Shown in pieces: positions 26,090-34,101 of a stretch of DNA of 64,000 nucleotides (its first letter is position 1; every line of letters starts with the position of its first letter). This DNA is from Candidatus Thiothrix sulfatifontis (GTDB lineage Bacteria > Pseudomonadota > Gammaproteobacteria > Thiotrichales > Thiotrichaceae). The translations under genes were made by a program, and so were the position numbers. Location of the stretch: assembly GCA_022828425.1 (NCBI GenBank), contig CP094685.1, forward strand, positions 2,480,001-2,544,000, written 5' to 3'. Under the pieces are notes generated by a model, which was given only the letters and a program-made list of their open reading frames with translations, made no database searches and was not told the DNA's origin.

Positions 26090-26980
26090 TTACTTCTTCC
26101 TTTGGGGCGCACCGCGCCCTGCGGCTCCGCCGCCCTGACTTGGCCTGAGCTCAAGACCTAGGGCAAGCCGGAAGCCAATGAAGTCGTAACGGTCGCCGGG
26201 AACGTACCTGTAACGGATGGCAGAACGCACGTACCTGCCGTAGTAGCGCCACGAACCACCGCGAACGACGCGCTTGACGCCTGCTTTATCGCCTCCGGCG
26301 ATACCCTCCGGGTCTATAACCGGCGAAGCCGGTAATTTTTCTTGCCACACATCCTGACACCATTCCCAGACGTTACCGTGCATTTCGTATAAGCCCCAAG
26401 CGTTGCAGGGGTAAGTTTTTACGTCAGCCGTTGATTTTTTAGCTTTATCATCATAGCCAGACTCACTCCATTTACCCGAATAGTTCACGTTGTCCAGCGT
26501 CAATTCTGTGCCGAAGTTGAACGGGGTTTGTGTTCCGGCGCGGCAGGCGTATTCCCATTCGGCTTCCCACGGCAGGCGCACAGTTAAATCGGGGTGGATT
26601 TGGTTGAGTTTGTCGATGAAGGCTTGAGCGTCGTCCCAGTTTACGGTTTCGACAGGACGATTATCGCCTTTAAAGTGGCTGGGATTTTCGCCCATAGTAG
26701 TTTGCCACAAGCGTTGGGGGACGGTGGTTTCGGCAAGCCAGAAGCCTTTACTGAGGGTGACTTGGTGTAAGGTTTCATCTTCCCAACGGCCTTCTTCAGC
26801 GCCTTCTTCTCCACTCCCGTCGGGTGAACCCATCATGAACGTGCCGGGTTGTATCCAACGGAAGGCGTGGCGCACGTCTTTGTAGGTGAAGGCTTGCCAC
26901 AGGCCGTAGCGGTCTTCGCCCCAGTCGGATGCCCAAGCGTAGGGGAATGTGGGTGGGGAGAGGTGATTGCGGTAGGTCAT
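26090..26980 (-). CDS. FGE-sulfatase/SUMF1-fold protein with DGR-like variable C-terminus
   Basis: 296 residues, essentially one formylglycine-generating-enzyme (C-type-lectin-like) domain: FRWIQPGTFMMGSPDGSGEE, VTLSKGFWLAETTVPQRLW, GENPSHFKGDNRPVETVNWD, RLPWEAEWEYACRAG, YEMHGNVWEWCQDVW, RVVRGGSW and a final GFRLALG. The catalytic cysteine pair of true FGE is absent: there is none after RVVRGGSW. It therefore looks like a ligand-binding module rather than an enzyme. Residues after RGGSW follow the pattern of a retroelement-diversified variable region. The start overlaps the DUF559 stop (ATGA). The last 25 residues are Gly/Arg-rich and encoded over a GC hairpin shared with the large paralog. 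Confidence 0.8.
   Translation of the reverse strand: MTYRNHLSPPTFPYAWASDWGEDRYGLWQAFTYKDVRHAFRWIQPGTFMMGSPDGSGEEGAEEGRWEDETLHQVTLSKGFWLAETTVPQRLWQTTMGENPSHFKGDNRPVETVNWDDAQAFIDKLNQIHPDLTVRLPWEAEWEYACRAGTQTPFNFGTELTLDNVNYSGKWSESGYDDKAKKSTADVKTYPCNAWGLYEMHGNVWEWCQDVWQEKLPASPVIDPEGIAGGDKAGVKRVVRGGSWRYYGRYVRSAIRYRYVPGDRYDFIGFRLALGLELRPSQGGGAAGRGAPQRKK
26117..26139 (-). repeat. GC hairpin block after variable region, copy 1
   Basis: Contains the perfect inverted repeat GCGGC-TCC-GCCGC (26121-26133) within a 21-base block identical to 27667-27687. It lies about 30 bases downstream of the end of the variable segment of the FGE-fold gene, inside the coding tail (SQGGGAAG). Retroelement target genes often carry a hairpin at this place; that role is inferred. 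Confidence 0.5.
26168..26270 (-). other. Candidate DGR variable region, copy 1
   Basis: Codons from RVVRGG to GFR. Fixed residues (W, G, RSA, R, P, D-R, GFR) alternate with variable ones, and nearly all variable positions use NNC codons: cgc, tac, tac, tac, atc, tac, tac, gac, tac, gac, ttc. This is what adenine mutagenesis of AAC codons in a template repeat would leave. The paralog at 27721-27822 differs at many of these positions, while the sequence just upstream is nearly identical. Confidence 0.55.
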
Positions 26981-27435
26981 GGGAAGACCCTCACCCCAAC
27001 CCCTCTCCCAGAGGTAGAGGGGCTTAAGAGGGAAGAATTTGGGTCGGCATCTTGCTCCCCCTCTACCTCCGGGAGAGGGGGCTGGGGGGTGAGGGTCTTC
27101 AACACTGAATGAATTTTATCTAAAACACTTGGCATGGATGCTTCAATGTCACGGTTCCAGAAACGTAAGACATGGTAGCCCTGTGCGATGAGAAATTGGG
27201 TACGGATTTGGTCATATTCTGCCTGATCGACTTCTGCATGATGGATACCGTCCAGTTCCACAATAAGCTTTTCCGCTCGGCAGACAAAATCCACGATGTA
27301 GTGACCGATAGCATACTGGCGATGAAACTTGTAACCATCCAGTTGGCGATTGCGCAATTGCTGCCACAAGCACTGCTCTGCGGGTGTTTGCTGTTGCCGA
27401 AGCAGACGCGATTTCTCACGATTTATTATTGTCAT
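26977..27435 (-). CDS. DUF559 endonuclease-like protein with repeat-derived C-terminal tail
   Basis: 152 residues. Residues 1-112 are a DUF559 (Vsr/restriction-endonuclease-like) domain: REKSRLLRQQQTPAEQCLWQQL, GYKFHRQYAIGHYIVDFVCRAEKLIVELDG (with D and E..D of the nuclease fold), HHAEVDQAEYDQIRTQFLIAQGYHVLRFWN. The last 40 residues (TPQPPLPEVEG... and LSPSTSGRGVGVRV) are the translation of two palindromic repeats (27055-27100 and 26986-27022). It ends by overlapping the FGE gene start by 4 bases. Such proteins are presumed DNA nicking enzymes; no partner methylase is near. Confidence 0.75.
   Translation of the reverse strand: MTIINREKSRLLRQQQTPAEQCLWQQLRNRQLDGYKFHRQYAIGHYIVDFVCRAEKLIVELDGIHHAEVDQAEYDQIRTQFLIAQGYHVLRFWNRDIEASMPSVLDKIHSVLKTLTPQPPLPEVEGEQDADPNSSLLSPSTSGRGVGVRVFP
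26986..27022. repeat. REP-like palindromic repeat, copy 1
   Basis: Begins GACCCTCACCCCAACCCC and contains the inverted repeat CCCCTCT...AGAGGGG. It is read through by the DUF559 gene, where it encodes the last residues before the stop. It lies in the opposite orientation to copy 2, about 30 bases away. Confidence 0.75.
27055..27100. repeat. REP-like palindromic repeat, copy 2
   Basis: CTCCCCCTCTACCTCCGGGA then GAGGGGGCTGGGGGGTGAGG; inverted repeat CCCCTCT/AGAGGGG with a short loop. It is inside the DUF559 coding frame and forms a head-to-head pair with copy 1. Confidence 0.75.
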
Positions 27436-27451
27436 GGCACTCTACTTCTCA

Positions 27452-27492
27452 GCCCCTCTACCTCTGGGAGAGGGGTTGGGGTGAGGGCTCTT
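27452..27492. repeat. REP-like palindromic repeat, copy 3
   Basis: GCCCCTCTACCTCTGGGAGA followed by GGGGTTGGGGTGAGGGC. It occupies the gap between the DUF559 gene and the large FGE-fold gene and could form an RNA hairpin between the two reading frames. Confidence 0.75.
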
Positions 27493-27519
27493 CGGCGGGG
27501 ATTTTGAAAAATTTCTGTT

Positions 27520-30459
27520 TCATTTTTTCTTCCTGAAAGGGTTTTTCAATCCTTTGAAAATTTTCTCTACTAAACCACCGCTCCCGGCACTGCCACGACC
27601 TGCCGTGTCGCCCGCGCCACGTCTGTCCGCGTCATTCCCGTCCGCTCTATCGTTGGTCGCTCTGCTCCCTGCGGCTCCGCCGCCCTGCCCTGACCTTAGC
27701 TCAAAATGACCTAAAAGCAAACGGAAACCAAGGTCGTTGTAACGGTCATCAGGCTCGTACCTGTAACGGTAGGCAGAACGGCAGAACACGCCGTCGTAGA
27801 GCCAAGCGCCGCCGCGAACGACGCGCTCAACGCCTGCTTGGTCGCCTCCGGCGACACCCTCCGGGTCTGTAACCGGCGAAGCCAGTAATTTTTCTTGCCA
27901 CACATCCTGACACCATTCCCACACGTTGCCGTGCATTTCATACAAACCCCACGGGTTGGCTGGAAGGGATTTGACAGGAACAGTCTTTTCTCTATATAGA
28001 CCTTTTTTGCCACCTGCGTAGGGATTATTACCGTTGTAATTCACCTGTTCTGGGGTAATGTTATCACCGAACGAAAACGGCGTGGTCGTGCCAGAGCGAC
28101 AGGCATATTCCCATTGGGCTTCGGTGGGGAGTTTGGCTTGTAGATTGGGAATAAGGGCATTGAGTTTTTTGATGAAGTCCTGAATGTCATTCCAGCTTAC
28201 TCGCTCAACGGGGTTGTTAGGGTTGTCGTTGAAACGGCTGGGGTTGTTGCCCATAACCGCTTGCCATAGCGATTGGGTAACGGTGGTATCTGCCAACCAG
28301 AAGCCTTGGGTTAGGGTGACTTGGTGTTGAACTTCATCGTCGTAGCGTCCTGCTTCGGATTCGGGTGAACCCATGAGGAATGTGCCGGGTTCGATCCAGC
28401 GGAAGCGTTGAGGGATGCCTTTTATCTCAAGGTCAGCATAAAGACCCAAACCATTCTGATAGCTATTAATATCACTCAGTACCTCTTGCCCAAAAGGTTT
28501 AGGCCATTCCCAATGACTGATAATTGCATCGGTTGCCTCCTTCCATAGGACGGTATATACCTTACCCACAAAAACAACTTCTGCTTGCAATCCTGTTTGG
28601 TCACGCCAAATTTTATTTGTCCAACTCGGCTTAGTGATATTTTGCAATTCAATCCAATGGGTAGCTGATTCGATTCCAACCAATCCCTGTTCGGCTTGAT
28701 AAACAGCCCCGTCCACTGCGATAGAATGCTGACCACCATCAATAGGAGCAAACAATACCGTCGGCGGCAAACCACGCAACGCACTGAATTCCGCAACAGG
28801 TGTTATTGCCAACCAATCTGCCCGTTGTGCTTGTTGTAGCTTAAATTGACCCTGATCACCGACTTGCACTACCTGCCACTGAACCCATTCTCCCCGCGCT
28901 TTTGCATCCAGCACCCACTGAAATCGTGCCAGATCAAAGTCTTTTTCCAATTGCTCAGGCCACTTACCCGCCCGAATTTCTTCTGCATAAGCCACCCCAA
29001 ACAAGTGATACGCCAACTCATTATGCTCACTGCGCCAGATACTTTCTGGTTTAGAAGCCAGAATAGTGCGGCATTGCATCACCAAGGTTTTATGCCGTGT
29101 TGAACCTTGCACTTCTTGGATAACAGTGGCACACAAGCGTTGGAGATAATCGCGTAACGCGGCATCATCACGTTGCTCCAACACACACTGATTCAGTTTT
29201 TCCAGTTGCCGCAACCCCTCAAAAGCACCGACATGATGCGCCTGCACAAGCTGCCACAATGTTTCTGCTTGCTGCGAACCGGCGAAATGCGCTTGATAGT
29301 CTTGGCGGTAACGTTCCGCTACCCGCTCATCTAAACGGATACCCAACCCAATCCGGCGGATGTCAGGGTGATTCCAGATTTCGCCTTCCCGCTCACTACC
29401 GCCCCAATGCAATGCCATACGCAAACGCCGCAATAACCCTGCATCCACCACAGGCAAACATGATAATAAAGCCAGAATCTCACTAATGGGAACAGGCGAA
29501 GCTGCCGTCAACGCAAAGCCACTTTGCCCCGGATGACGCGGCAACCGATAAGCATCATTTAAGGGGTGCGGCTTGAATGTGCGGCATAGCCACCGCTGGC
29601 GCGGGGAGCGCATCACCGGGCTGAGCGTCAATAGTGGTGCAGGATGCGAACGCAATGCCTTGAGCAAGCGTGACCAGTTGGCACTGGCATTGACGTTATC
29701 GGCTGTTACCCCCAAATCCCCCAAGACCAAAATCGGCACATCCGCTGGTGGGAGTTGCCACTGTTGCCACTCGTCATCCGCCTGCCCCGGCCACGGGATG
29801 CAATCAGGTATTTCCCCAGACCAAGCCGTATCCTCAAAACGGATAGCTTCAACGGCATCCTCACCCAACAACGCCTTGAATTGTTGGATGACACGCGCAA
29901 AATCGCCCCAATACGGTTCTAAATGCAGCCCTGCATCCACAATAATATGCAAACGTTGCGCCCAATGTTGGCGCGACATCTGCGGTAAACGCTGCAACGC
30001 TTTACCCAATGCCACTTGGCGTGCCAGTCGTTGCTGATCCAAACGTTTGCTGGTACGAGACACCCCAAGGCTATTCAACAAAAACGGAATAAGGCGTGAG
30101 AGCGGCAATAAGGGTGGTGGCGGTGCAAAATGGTATGAATCCGTGCTGTTTGCATTAGGCAATAAACGCATGGCGGGGTCATGCAGATAGTCCGACGCTT
30201 GTTTGTCAGGCTCTGTTACACGGGTGATTTTATTGACCCGCAAAAAACGGGCTGGCGGGCGTTGTGGAATGGCTACGTCTGGTGTCGTTTCAAACGGTAT
30301 CAATGTTGAAGTGGTGTGGTGTGAAGCGGTATCGGCATCATCAACGGTAAGCGGTTCTGGCGCAGACTGTTTGACATAACCAAACACAGTCGCCATTTTT
30401 TGCAGATTGGCATCCTCTTCCCCCGCCGCTTGTAGCAGTGCCAACCGCCCCCATGCCAT
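27520..30459 (-). CDS. Large protein: vWA-like N-terminal region plus C-terminal FGE/SUMF1-fold domain with DGR-like variable region
   Basis: 979 residues. About 165-290 (RLHIIVDAGLHLEPYWGDF ... VPILVLGDLGVTADN) looks like a degenerate von Willebrand A fold, with DxGxH in place of the DxSxS metal site (inference). A long helical middle follows. About 690-925 is an FGE fold: RFRWIEPGTFLMGSPE, VTLTQGFWLADTTVTQSLW, KLPTEAQWEYACRSG, YEMHGNVWEWCQDVW, RVVRGGAW, GFRLLLG. One Cys remains after RGGAW, so formylglycine chemistry is unlikely. The Gly/Arg/Asp-rich tail ends in a basic KNPFRKKK. It starts 3 bases after the MoxR-type ATPase gene, so they form one operon; the protein is a likely sensor partner of that ATPase. 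Confidence 0.75.
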   Translation of the reverse strand: MAWGRLALLQAAGEEDANLQKMATVFGYVKQSAPEPLTVDDADTASHHTTSTLIPFETTPDVAIPQRPPARFLRVNKITRVTEPDKQASDYLHDPAMRLLPNANSTDSYHFAPPPPLLPLSRLIPFLLNSLGVSRTSKRLDQQRLARQVALGKALQRLPQMSRQHWAQRLHIIVDAGLHLEPYWGDFARVIQQFKALLGEDAVEAIRFEDTAWSGEIPDCIPWPGQADDEWQQWQLPPADVPILVLGDLGVTADNVNASANWSRLLKALRSHPAPLLTLSPVMRSPRQRWLCRTFKPHPLNDAYRLPRHPGQSGFALTAASPVPISEILALLSCLPVVDAGLLRRLRMALHWGGSEREGEIWNHPDIRRIGLGIRLDERVAERYRQDYQAHFAGSQQAETLWQLVQAHHVGAFEGLRQLEKLNQCVLEQRDDAALRDYLQRLCATVIQEVQGSTRHKTLVMQCRTILASKPESIWRSEHNELAYHLFGVAYAEEIRAGKWPEQLEKDFDLARFQWVLDAKARGEWVQWQVVQVGDQGQFKLQQAQRADWLAITPVAEFSALRGLPPTVLFAPIDGGQHSIAVDGAVYQAEQGLVGIESATHWIELQNITKPSWTNKIWRDQTGLQAEVVFVGKVYTVLWKEATDAIISHWEWPKPFGQEVLSDINSYQNGLGLYADLEIKGIPQRFRWIEPGTFLMGSPESEAGRYDDEVQHQVTLTQGFWLADTTVTQSLWQAVMGNNPSRFNDNPNNPVERVSWNDIQDFIKKLNALIPNLQAKLPTEAQWEYACRSGTTTPFSFGDNITPEQVNYNGNNPYAGGKKGLYREKTVPVKSLPANPWGLYEMHGNVWEWCQDVWQEKLLASPVTDPEGVAGGDQAGVERVVRGGAWLYDGVFCRSAYRYRYEPDDRYNDLGFRLLLGHFELRSGQGGGAAGSRATNDRADGNDADRRGAGDTAGRGSAGSGGLVEKIFKGLKNPFRKKK
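27667..27687 (-). repeat. GC hairpin block after variable region, copy 2
   Basis: Same 21-base block as at 26117-26139, with inverted repeat GCGGC-TCC-GCCGC at 27671-27683. Here it is translated as QGGGAAG in the protein tail. A second shared stretch further downstream (27579-27600, compare 26023-26042) is coding here but lies beyond the stop of the other paralog. Confidence 0.5.
27721..27822 (-). other. Candidate DGR variable region, copy 2
   Basis: RVVRGGAW to GFR segment of the 979-residue protein. Variable codons are ctc, tac, gac, ttc, tgc, tac, tac, tac, gac, tac, aac, gac, all NNC. Conserved residues W, CRSA, R, P, D-R and GFR sit where retroelement-target FGE-fold proteins keep them. 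One AAC codon remains unmutated. Confidence 0.55.
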
Positions 30460-30462
30460 TGT

Positions 30463-31539
30463 TTAACCGTCCACTTCTTTTTTCAGGGCATAACGGGCTA
30501 TTTTATCAAGCCGGGTTTGTTGTTCCGTTTTCTCTAACGATTGCAAAGCACTCAGCAAGTCGATGTATTCCGCTAATCCCGGTGGATAACGGTTTTGGCT
30601 ATCCCCTTCCCTATCTGCCCATAGCTGTTTAGCCGCCTGCAAATAGACAGCATCCGCAATACGGCTACCAAAATGCAATTGACCGCGTTCCACCAACCAC
30701 GCATGACGTTTTTCAACAGTCTCATCATGCCATGTCACCGTTATTTTTTCGGGGGACTCTTCCATTTTCAAGGTGTGTACAAAACAGCGGCGCACGAAGG
30801 CAGAGGGCAATTCACGCTCCTCATTCGTGGTAATCACCACCAGCACCCGCACAGGATCAGCCTGTACAGGGTTATTCAATACACTGTTCGCATCTGCCTG
30901 CTGGGTATCATGTAGGTAAGGAACACTAAAACGGTATTGCCCTAAAGTTTCCAATAAACCATTAGGCAAATCAGGCTCGGCTTTATCAATTTCATCCAAG
31001 AGCAACACAACACCGCCTGTTGGTGGCTGCCATGTTTTACCTTGCGGGGTTGTGCTGTCGGGCTTTAACGGTTCAGGGCGTAAGCGAGTATAACAGGCTT
31101 GATACTGATACGCGGCAGCCTGCCAATCATAAGCCCACCAGAATACACCGGGCGAAAGGAAGTTCAGCGGATTAAGCCTATCTTGGATCGCGCTGCAACC
31201 TGATGCTGAGGGTGAAGCGTTACCCATACTACGTGCTTGCGCTTCACCTAAACGCCCTATCGCATCAAAGTGGCAATGCAAATCGCTAAGTTCGGTACTG
31301 CCGTGTATGACTTCACTAACAAATGCCCAGCCCAATTGTTCGGCTATCGCTTTTGCCATCTGGCTCTTACCCGTCCCCGGTTTTCCCCTCACCAACAAAG
31401 GTCGCCCTGCGGAATACGCCGCCCACAGTGCGTAGCAATCCTCTTCGTTGAAAACGTGGTGTAACCTCCGCCCCGAATTGGAAACGGTAAAATTGGGAGG
31501 GATAAAATCTTTGAGCTTAGGCACTTCTTGTTTAGACAT
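30463..31539 (-). CDS. MoxR-type AAA+ ATPase
   Basis: 358 residues. Walker A GKPGTGKSQ (residues 52-60), an insert with STELSDLHCHFD, Walker B VVLLLDEIDKAEPDLPNGLLE, sensor 1 VITTNEERELP and arginine finger FVRRCF. A helical lid occupies the C-terminal third. The WWAYDWQAAAYQ segment before Walker B is typical of the MoxR-like ATPases that accompany FGE-fold and protease genes. It overlaps the upstream gene by 8 bases and is followed after 3 bases by the vWA-like/FGE protein. MoxR ATPases work with vWA partners to remodel client proteins (family knowledge); here it is the presumed NTP-dependent switch of the conflict system. Confidence 0.85.
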   Translation of the reverse strand: MSKQEVPKLKDFIPPNFTVSNSGRRLHHVFNEEDCYALWAAYSAGRPLLVRGKPGTGKSQMAKAIAEQLGWAFVSEVIHGSTELSDLHCHFDAIGRLGEAQARSMGNASPSASGCSAIQDRLNPLNFLSPGVFWWAYDWQAAAYQYQACYTRLRPEPLKPDSTTPQGKTWQPPTGGVVLLLDEIDKAEPDLPNGLLETLGQYRFSVPYLHDTQQADANSVLNNPVQADPVRVLVVITTNEERELPSAFVRRCFVHTLKMEESPEKITVTWHDETVEKRHAWLVERGQLHFGSRIADAVYLQAAKQLWADREGDSQNRYPPGLAEYIDLLSALQSLEKTEQQTRLDKIARYALKKEVDG

Positions 31540-32446
31540 GGGCAGCTACTCGCTTGGGGTTCTTGAGTCGGAGTATAACGGCTAGATCTTCCAGCAACGA
31601 ACTTTGATCTTCACGACAAGGCGACAACTCATCAAGACTCGTTTGCACACAACAGATGAACTGTACACATCCTGCTAGTTTTTCTTTCAGCTTCGGGTAA
31701 CAAGCCAAATCCTCTAACATCTCCAAATAAGCATTAGAAACGATGTAATAGATCGGTTTACCACCTTGGCGTTTCGATAAGGCACGGGCAGTTTTTTGTA
31801 TATCAGCCAGAAGCCTATCAACATCTTGCGGTGCGCTGTCGACTCGTCGCAATTGCTTAAAAATCTCACTCAATATCTGAATATCGGATGCGCCCGCCGT
31901 ATGCCCATCAAACACCATCGGGTCATGAATGCTGCTGGCGGGTATGGGATCACCGTATTCATCAAGATCATAGCGGGCTTGCTGTAATAAACTGCGCGAA
32001 ATGATGACTTCCACATAGGCTTGCGTATCCAGAGATAGACTACGGGTAACGCTGTCTTGCGCGGTGCTTTGCAAACTGGCTTCGTGTTGAAGCCACCATT
32101 CAGGGTCAACGCTATTGATCAACAACCAGCCGCACAATTGCTCAACATGGGTTAGATAATCTTCCCAGCGCTCCTTGAGTGACTCCGGCTTTTTCTTATC
32201 TAGCTCCAACGAGATTTGAGCGAGTACTCCAACTGCCTGACTAACCTCTTGCTTTTCAACAAGGTGTGCTGCGATGTCAGCCGCGATAGCACAGGAATCC
32301 AGCTTCAAGACGGCTTTCAATTTCTCGCGCAGCACGAGTTGTCCATCCAGAATGCGCGTTGCTTCGGCTTTTACCTTGGTGTGCAATTGAGCTGTTACCT
32401 GCCTGGCAGGCTTAACGATTTCACGAAATAATTTTTCATTGTGCAA
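31532..32446 (-). pseudogene. 3' part of the protease fusion gene interrupted by an IS5-family element
   Basis: About 304 residues, mostly helical (EKLFREIVKPARQVTAQLHT, LKLDSCAIAADIAAHLVEKQ, WEDYLTHVEQLCGWLLIN) with a mixed C-terminal half (KPIYYIVSNAYLEMLEDLA). No family is recognised; by position it should be the effector- or adaptor-binding region of the protease. The apparent TTG start is only the codon left at the insertion point. Deleting the element and one AAT copy joins ...SIPWL to LHNEKLF... in frame with the trypsin domain at 33518-34101, giving a protein of about 498 residues. It may still be expressed if translation re-initiates. Confidence 0.7.
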
Positions 32447-32447
32447 T

Positions 32448-33517
32448 AGACATTATCTATAAAAAAAATAAAATATATAGATAATAATTATAAATGGCAA
32501 AATGCACATCCAGAGCGTAAATTCCTAACAGTAATAACAGCCTAGAGTAGGGACTAACGGCATGGCGGAGTACAGCTTTAACGCATTGAAATCCAATGAA
32601 AAGGCATTTGTTGCCATGACCAGTCTCAACGTCAAGGAGTTTTTGGGTTTGCTCGAACTGTTCAGCGCAGCTTACCAAACTGACCTACACGCACGGGGCA
32701 AACGTGTTGATGAGACGCGGGGTCGTTCTGATGGGAAACTGGCATTAATAGAAGACAAACTGTTTTTCATTCTGTTTTACCTGAAGACCTATCCTTTACA
32801 AGAAGTGCTGGCGCATTCATTTGATCTTCCCCAAAGTGTGGCAAACCACTGGATACACCGCTTATGCCCGGTATTACAAAGTGCATTGGATAAGATGGGA
32901 CATAAGCCCATTCGACTATGCTCAGAATTAATGGGACGGCTAGCAGAAGAAGGGCAACAGGAATTGGTTATTGACGGAACAGAGCGGAGAATCCAGCGCC
33001 CCGTGGATAATGATGTCCAGCGTGAATACTATAGTGGTAAAAAAAATCCCATACGGTTAAAAACAATGTCATCGTTGGCTGTGCTGACAGACATATCAAA
33101 TACTTAGGGAATACCCACTCAGGCAAGAAGCATGACAAGAAAATTGCCGATGAGGAGCAGACCCGATTACCGGAGGGTTCTGTGATTTTACGTGATTTAG
33201 GCTTCAAGGGGGCTGACATGGGAAAAGGTGTCACCGTCATTGAGCCAAAAAAGAAGCCACGGAATAAATGCCTGACCCCGCAAGAAAAAGAAGAAAACCG
33301 TCAAATTTCTGCCCGCAGGGTAGTCGTTGAACATATCATCAGTGGTATTAAACGCTGCCGATGCCTGAAAGATGTGTACCGTAATTTAAAAGATGACTTT
33401 GATGACCAGATTATGGAAATTGCTTGCGGACTACACAACCTGAGAAACTCCATGAGAAATCCCATCTATTGAAAGTTTTAAAAACTTTTAGATAAAAATT
33501 ATTTATAGATAATGTCT
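32448..33517 (+). mobile_element. IS5-family insertion sequence (1070 bp)
   Basis: Ends are inverted repeats beginning AGACATTATCTATAAA on both sides when read inward. A 3-base duplication AAT flanks it (32445-32447 and 33518-33520). Both ends are strongly AT-rich. It carries one transposase gene in two frames. Length, transposase type and 3-base duplication fit the IS5 family. It splits the minus-strand trypsin-like fusion gene. Confidence 0.9.
32562..33472 (+). CDS. IS5-family transposase, split by a -1 frameshift at an A8 run
   Basis: Frame one (32562-33107) has the HTH_Tnp_4-like N-terminus (LIEDKLFFILFYLKTYPLQE) and the first catalytic Asp in VIDGTERRIQRP. At GGTAAAAAAAATCCC (about 33035-33049) a -1 slip continues as KKKSHTVKNNVIVGCADRH, IKYLGNTHSGKKHDKK, then LRDLGFKGADM (second Asp) and the C-terminal RRVVVEHIISGIKRC with the Glu. 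The combined protein is about 303 residues, normal for DDE_Tnp_4 transposases. The slippery run may allow programmed frameshifting; alternatively this is a disabling indel. Confidence 0.8.
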
Positions 33518-34101
33518 AATAGCCACGGAATTGAAACGGCTTTGAAGTAGCCTTCTAACGACGAATAGTCATGGGTAATCACCGCAGCCAATTGCTGACC
33601 AATAAACACCGGAGAGCCTGAAAAGCCAGCCCAACCATTGGCTTCTATCGCATCAACATCCGTTGCCAATTCGACCACATGCTTTTTCAAACCTGCCACT
33701 GTGCCCGACATGCCCAAATCATCGCGAATCGTTGGCTCTTTAGCTGCTCGTGGAAAACCCCGACCTGACCACGCAGTAGTTGGCACAGGAGCAGTAAGCA
33801 ACCAGTCTACCTGAGGTGGTTTGAATGGTGTTGCTTGGGGGCAACGAATAACTGCAACGTCGATATTTGGCTCACAAGCAAATCCATCAAACACAATATC
33901 CGCATCCGCAAACAGCATTTCATGTTTGTCTTGTTCAGGCCATACCAGTTTCAATTGGGGATTGTCTGCACGCTTGTCAAAACGCACCACATGACGAGCA
34001 GTTAGAACTAACCCATTTCCAATGGAATATCCCGTACCAATGCAAGGATCACCGTCTTTATCGTGAGCATAAACCTGCACCAACCAATCGGCATTGAGCA
34101 T
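33499..34101 (-). CDS. Trypsin-like serine protease domain, 5' part of a gene interrupted by an IS5-family element
   Basis: 200 residues, of which the first 194 are native. Chymotrypsin-like fold with His37 in LTARHVV, Asp81 in NIDVAVIRC and Ser161 in GFSGSPVF, so the protease domain is complete and probably catalytic. There is no signal peptide: a cytoplasmic protease, as in NTP-dependent conflict systems. After the WL at residues 193-194 the frame enters the insertion sequence and stops six codons later. The separated C-terminal region is at 31532-32446. The gene begins 15 bases after the trypco2-like gene with GAGGG upstream. Confidence 0.8.
   Translation of the reverse strand: MLNADWLVQVYAHDKDGDPCIGTGYSIGNGLVLTARHVVRFDKRADNPQLKLVWPEQDKHEMLFADADIVFDGFACEPNIDVAVIRCPQATPFKPPQVDWLLTAPVPTTAWSGRGFPRAAKEPTIRDDLGMSGTVAGLKKHVVELATDVDAIEANGWAGFSGSPVFIGQQLAAVITHDYSSLEGYFKAVSIPWLLDIIYK

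Follow-up and report, generated by a model that had tools for sequence, protein, structure and literature searches.

A stretch of 64,000 nucleotides from Candidatus Thiothrix sulfatifontis (the window, in whose coordinates features are given below) holds two FGE-fold genes whose ends look hypermutated, raising the question of where this variability came from and whether it is still being generated. An earlier note, made from the letters of the window, had assigned both genes variable regions (VRs) in the style of a diversity-generating retroelement (DGR) and had argued that diversification would have to act in trans. We consider it likely that the two genes, VP1 and VP2, are former DGR targets in a MoxR/trypsin locus from which the cis cassette has been lost, their alleles now being without machinery. 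The targets and their VRs are as follows.

26090-26980, minus strand: VP2, the short target, 296 aa, a single FGE/C-type-lectin domain (PF03781, E=4e-45)
27520-30459, minus strand: VP1, the long target, 979 aa, a C-terminal FGE domain and an N-terminal extension without a Pfam match
26165-26251, minus strand: VR A, in VP2, of the template type of T. fructosivorans (genome G007)
27718-27804, minus strand: VR B, in VP1, of the template type of a second relative (genome G002)

Both reading frames are intact. When VR cores were defined as running from the TGG codon through the codon following GFR, they fell at 26251-26165(-) and 27804-27718(-), where the earlier note had placed DGR-style VRs, and in both proteins the VR makes up the final ~90 bp of the FGE/C-type-lectin domain. 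Side-by-side alignment of VP1 and VP2 revealed almost identical codons before the RVVRGG motif and divergence over the ~30 codons after it, which confirmed that the paralogs are nearly identical directly upstream and part ways in the VR. The best match of VP2 among solved structures was TvpA of Treponema denticola (2y3c), with which the variable segments align; together with PF03781, this alignment predicts that the VR closes a C-type-lectin/FGE fold at its C-terminus, as in DGR targets.

We surveyed 16 Thiothrix genomes, including the genome under study (G000) and T. caldifontis (G012). With VR A as the query, a DNA search across the genus found complete DGR loci in relatives. In T. fructosivorans, on a record titled plasmid pTfr446, the order is MoxR, a 964-aa target, a 168-aa HRDC accessory gene, a reverse transcriptase (RT), a template repeat (TR), a second target and a 1404-aa-type gene; a gene of this last type closes the corresponding place in the window, and the two loci are syntenic. 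The T. fructosivorans RT carries LPIGSLTSQ, a form of the (I/V/L)GxxxSQ motif by which DGR RTs are recognised (PMC3521204). DGR-type RTs were present in G001, G002, G004, G005, G006, G007 and G013, some of them partial or without the catalytic part, as in G002, whose RT (L085:8503-9291) aligns only with residues 2-175 and 273-340 of the T. fructosivorans RT query and has no catalytic YMDD part. Seven genomes (G000, G003, G009, G011, G012, G014 and G015) carried VR-like sequences with no DGR-type RT match; in some of them the RT query picked up RTs of group II introns or others of the QGxxxSP type. RTs of ~280-290 aa in relatives (for example L023, L026 and L028) were likewise rejected as DGR RTs because they carry QGxxxSP, true DGR RTs being of the G007:C5:411399 type. 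In G001 and G009 the VRs of the short genes share an atypical KF(Y/S)RNDRR, and the G001 copy fits the compared templates poorly (12-20 non-adenine differences), so both may be old. Frameshifts lie at or near the VR in the second target of T. fructosivorans (L081:8735-9598) and the first target of T. caldifontis (L093:5128-8088).

Comparison with the TRs of two of these relatives revealed differences clustered at template adenines, as in DGR targets. VR A departs from the T. fructosivorans template (TR_G007) at 14 of 26 adenines and at 2 of 64 other positions (Fisher p=9e-8), and VR B departs from the G002 template (TR_G002) at 11/24 adenines and 2/66 other positions (p=3e-6). In the AAC-derived codons of both VRs the third-base C was kept in 19 of 19, as expected from the earlier proposal that NNC codons arose from template AAC, and 18 of these codons were changed, the background share of codons ending in C being 26.5%; VR A contributes ten AAC codons, every one changed with its third C kept. 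Adenine mutation cannot turn any codon of either template into a stop. When the VR/TR pairings were swapped, 14-15 non-adenine differences appeared, indicating that VR A and VR B descend from two template types (NVRSAIR..DPAN..I and NCRSAYR..EPDD..L). Comparing the paralogs only with each other therefore confounds adenine changes with template-type differences, and the earlier reading of the paralog differences as adenine mutation stands in part: the adenine bias is there against the TRs of relatives, and the paralog comparison mixes in the difference in template type. Two non-adenine changes are left in each VR against these foreign templates; changes not derived from adenine include GCT->GGC in VR A, AGG->GTG (second base) and GGC->GGT in VR B, and likewise TCG->GCT immediately 5′ of the VR B Trp codon. 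Because real templates of relatives account for both VRs at adenines, a DGR origin of VR A and VR B is supported at the level of sequence. DGR reverse transcription would have copied a TR with adenine errors and overwritten the ~90 bp at the end of each FGE domain, and the resulting NNC codons would fall on the face that binds ligand in TvpA-type proteins.

The place where the T. fructosivorans locus carries its accessory gene, RT and TR is occupied in the window by a DUF559 cassette, preceded by a remnant of the accessory gene.

27498-27523, minus strand: accessory-gene remnant, ~9 codons (MKQKFFKIP) from the beginning of the HRDC accessory gene, now lost; sequence ATGAAACAGAAATTTTTCAAAATCCC
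26977-27500, minus strand: DUF559 cassette (gene 26977-27435, PF04480), ending at the start of VP2

The remnant begins as the intact accessory genes in G007 and G002 do, sits downstream of VP1 and is fused straight to the DUF559 cassette. Alignment showed this junction to be common to G000, T. caldifontis and G004, whereas G015 has the DUF559 cassette and yet retains the stretch that complete loci carry on the 3′ side of their TR. The simplest order would be insertion of DUF559 before VP2, after which a single deletion took out the accessory gene together with RT and TR in the common ancestor of G000, G004 and T. caldifontis. An ancestor of the species would thus have lost the three elements beside the cassette, the targets remaining as open reading frames in a genome that now has no mutagenic machinery. 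The DUF559 gene (26985-27500) has CCCTCACCCCAACCCCTCTCCC repeats on its two sides, inverted relative to each other, and occupies the same site in G004, G012 and G015; the unit looks like a small mobile cassette.

The earlier note had proposed comparing relatives for adenine-specific variation, and VR B of T. caldifontis provides it. Where both templates have adenine, 13/23 sites differ between G000 and T. caldifontis, compared with 2/64 of the others (p=9e-8), whereas the 309 bp before VR B are 7.1% divergent, the 191 bp after it 1.6% and the DUF559 cassette 3.0%. Provided that the junction is ancestral, the adenine changes postdate it, and the RT and TR were then located elsewhere. A shared deletion junction with VRs that differ at adenines thus suggests past diversification in trans or VR exchange: probably hypermutation went on after the cis loss through a trans copy that has since been lost, or recombination exchanged the VRs. 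For VR B, and perhaps also for VR A, the probable course is that a DGR elsewhere, since lost, overwrote the region once the cis cassette had been deleted, or that recombination replaced it; the timing of loss and rewriting we infer.

The stricter form of the second alternative, in which no hypermutation followed the deletion in this lineage and finished VRs were gained by recombination with DGR-bearing relatives, has the mosaic structure of the locus in its favour. The nearest neighbour of the FGE domains switches among species along the genes (sliding identity), part of the VP1 domain (about 28600-28000) being nearest to G002 and VP2 to G015, and in VP2 the VR type goes with the allied domain, so the VRs may have come ready-made. 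MoxR is 95% identical to its T. fructosivorans counterpart and 97% to that of T. caldifontis at the nucleotide level, and the flanking 1404-aa gene is 77% identical to that of T. fructosivorans. Against it, VR B lies between flanks 92.9% and 98.4% identical to T. caldifontis and is itself identical at 62/64 non-adenine sites while differing at 13/23 adenine sites, and import of a VR would require breakpoints very close to the VR edges. We regard recombination as the sole source of these VRs as a serious rival, though the less likely reading. Equally tentative is a broader picture in which the Thiothrix sensor-gene pool is rewritten by transient mobile RT/TR cassettes in a 'hit and run' manner; after the cis loss that G000, G004 and T. 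caldifontis inherited, differing foreign templates would have overwritten the VRs in trans and then vanished.

Whether the VRs could still be rewritten depends on what the present genome encodes. The searched G000 assembly is one contig of 3,692,320 bases, scored 100% complete, in which the window spans 2480001-2544000. Its only RVT_1 match is a 519-aa retron type XIII RT with QGxxxSP (gene G000:C1:2628684-2629310, L001); no RT with the (I/V/L)GxxxSQ motif of a complete DGR was found in this genome, and the T. fructosivorans DGR RT query gave no match in it at E<=0.01. DNA and pattern searches of the same assembly for a TR returned only VR A and VR B, plus chance-level matches of 19-31 bases. 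An accessory protein query matched only the HRDC domain in a 616-aa frame, which we rejected as the accessory gene because it is RecQ-sized (it is presumably RecQ). The genome-wide check for RT and template proposed in the earlier note thus found neither, one of the two results that it had named as speaking against its reading; the other, differences that ignore template adenines, was contradicted by the TR comparisons. With no DGR RT, TR or accessory gene in G000, diversification in trans is unavailable now, unless from an unassembled replicon. Of the earlier proposal of trans action, the present-day part is not supported on this assembly, and the shared junction with adenine-differing VRs suggests that trans action, or VR exchange, did occur in the past. 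Since the present genome has no mutagenic machinery, the current VR alleles of VP1 and VP2 are most likely frozen leftovers.

Continuing diversification from a plasmid or phage that carries the RT and TR and is absent from the assembly would fit the plasmid title of the T. fructosivorans record, the intact frames of both targets and the trans targeting known from Thiohalocapsa (PMC10907252). We consider it quite improbable, as no matching TR or RT lies in the single, 100% complete-scored contig, G012 and G015 gave no DGR RT match either, and 72,556 plasmid records contained no close relative of the RT (best, 36% identical). Ordinary FGE-family variability under positive selection with no DGR can be set aside almost entirely: the W..RSA..R..P..R..GFR frame is indeed common to other FGE proteins of G000, but the differences sit on template adenines with synonymous positions conserved, relatives do have TRs, and the three VRs of G015, a genome with no DGR RT match, agree with TR_G007 at 64/64 non-adenine sites while 14-17 of 26 adenines are changed, so that the TR comparisons already contradict this reading.

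Outside the window, G000 has a second orphan VR-like pair in tandem FGE genes, at G000:C1:2992781-2992899(-) and 2993642-2993759(-) (L201). The two copies agree completely over the ~55 bp that precede the VR and are far less alike further upstream; the VRs differ at clustered sites, mostly in codon positions 1-2. Homologues of the pair occur in G002, G003, G006 and G014, and no TR was recognised for it.

The former targets lie beside what we presume to be a ternary conflict system.

30463-31539, minus strand: MoxR-like AAA ATPase (AAA_5/AAA), part of the presumed ternary conflict system
31532-32446, minus strand: C-terminal half of the split trypsin/VMAP protein
32448-33517, plus strand: IS element of ~1070 bp, transposase frame 32562-33107, with ~13-bp terminal inverted repeats AGACATTATCTAT
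33499-34101, minus strand: trypsin-like N-terminal half of the presumed VMAP-type protein, aligning with the N-terminal part of an intact 498-aa T. fructosivorans protein

Clade 5A DGR loci combine MoxR, one long and one short C-type-lectin (CLec) target and a trypsin-like effector (PMC10907252), and DGR-linked ternary conflict systems have a predicted role in defence against phage or other invaders (PMC7159879, PMC10907252). The gene order at 34101-26090 is of this type, with a MoxR ATPase beside a long extended and a short CLec target and a peptidase nearby, and by analogy VP1 and VP2 are presumed to be the antigen sensors of the MoxR/trypsin system. The trypsin/VMAP gene is continuous in T. 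caldifontis and T. fructosivorans; in the window it is split by the ~1070 bp IS, leaving no intact protein, so the conflict system may be non-functional here. At the site between the guaA-like and 1404-aa genes (the window, L087, L093, L094 and L081), the type of conflict system varies by species, the types being told apart by how the long target begins at its N-terminus.

Orphan DGR targets have been described before. In T. denticola isolates lacking RT and TR, targets that differ from known TRs mainly at adenines persist and were interpreted as leftovers (PMC4891356); the TvpA-type DGR of that species resembles ours in its FGE-fold target, HRDC accessory gene and RT/TR-less carriers, whereas the Thiothrix targets belong to another bacterium, lie in a MoxR/trypsin locus and preserve the deletion junction. 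Thiohalocapsa PB-PSB1 has degenerate DGR loci and trans targeting (PMC10907252), and its DGR 8 / clade 5A loci have MoxR directly before a long N-terminally extended target, a short CLec-only target and trypsin-like effectors nearby. This likeness is one of gene arrangement; in contrast to Thiohalocapsa, G000 has no DGR RT left and hence nothing that could now act on its targets in trans. VMAP ternary conflict systems linked to DGRs share MoxR, a peptidase protein and a VR-bearing FGE/CLec component (PMC7159879) but differ in that no vWA domain was found in VP1 and the peptidase gene of G000 is broken by an IS. Among the papers searched, none combined diversity-generating retroelement and Thiothrix. 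With orphan targets and trans targeting already published, the Thiothrix case is a new, well-preserved example.

What it offers is a well-resolved view of how a DGR was lost, in a genus that includes cultured species: the targets, the remnant and the deletion junction can all be seen, and so can intact relatives. Related species with the same deletion but different bases at template-adenine sites allow a test of DGR trans action across the lineage, and the same set lets the fate of hypervariable sensors after freezing be studied. If the 'hit and run' picture is true, their VR sequences would be a record of which template visited.
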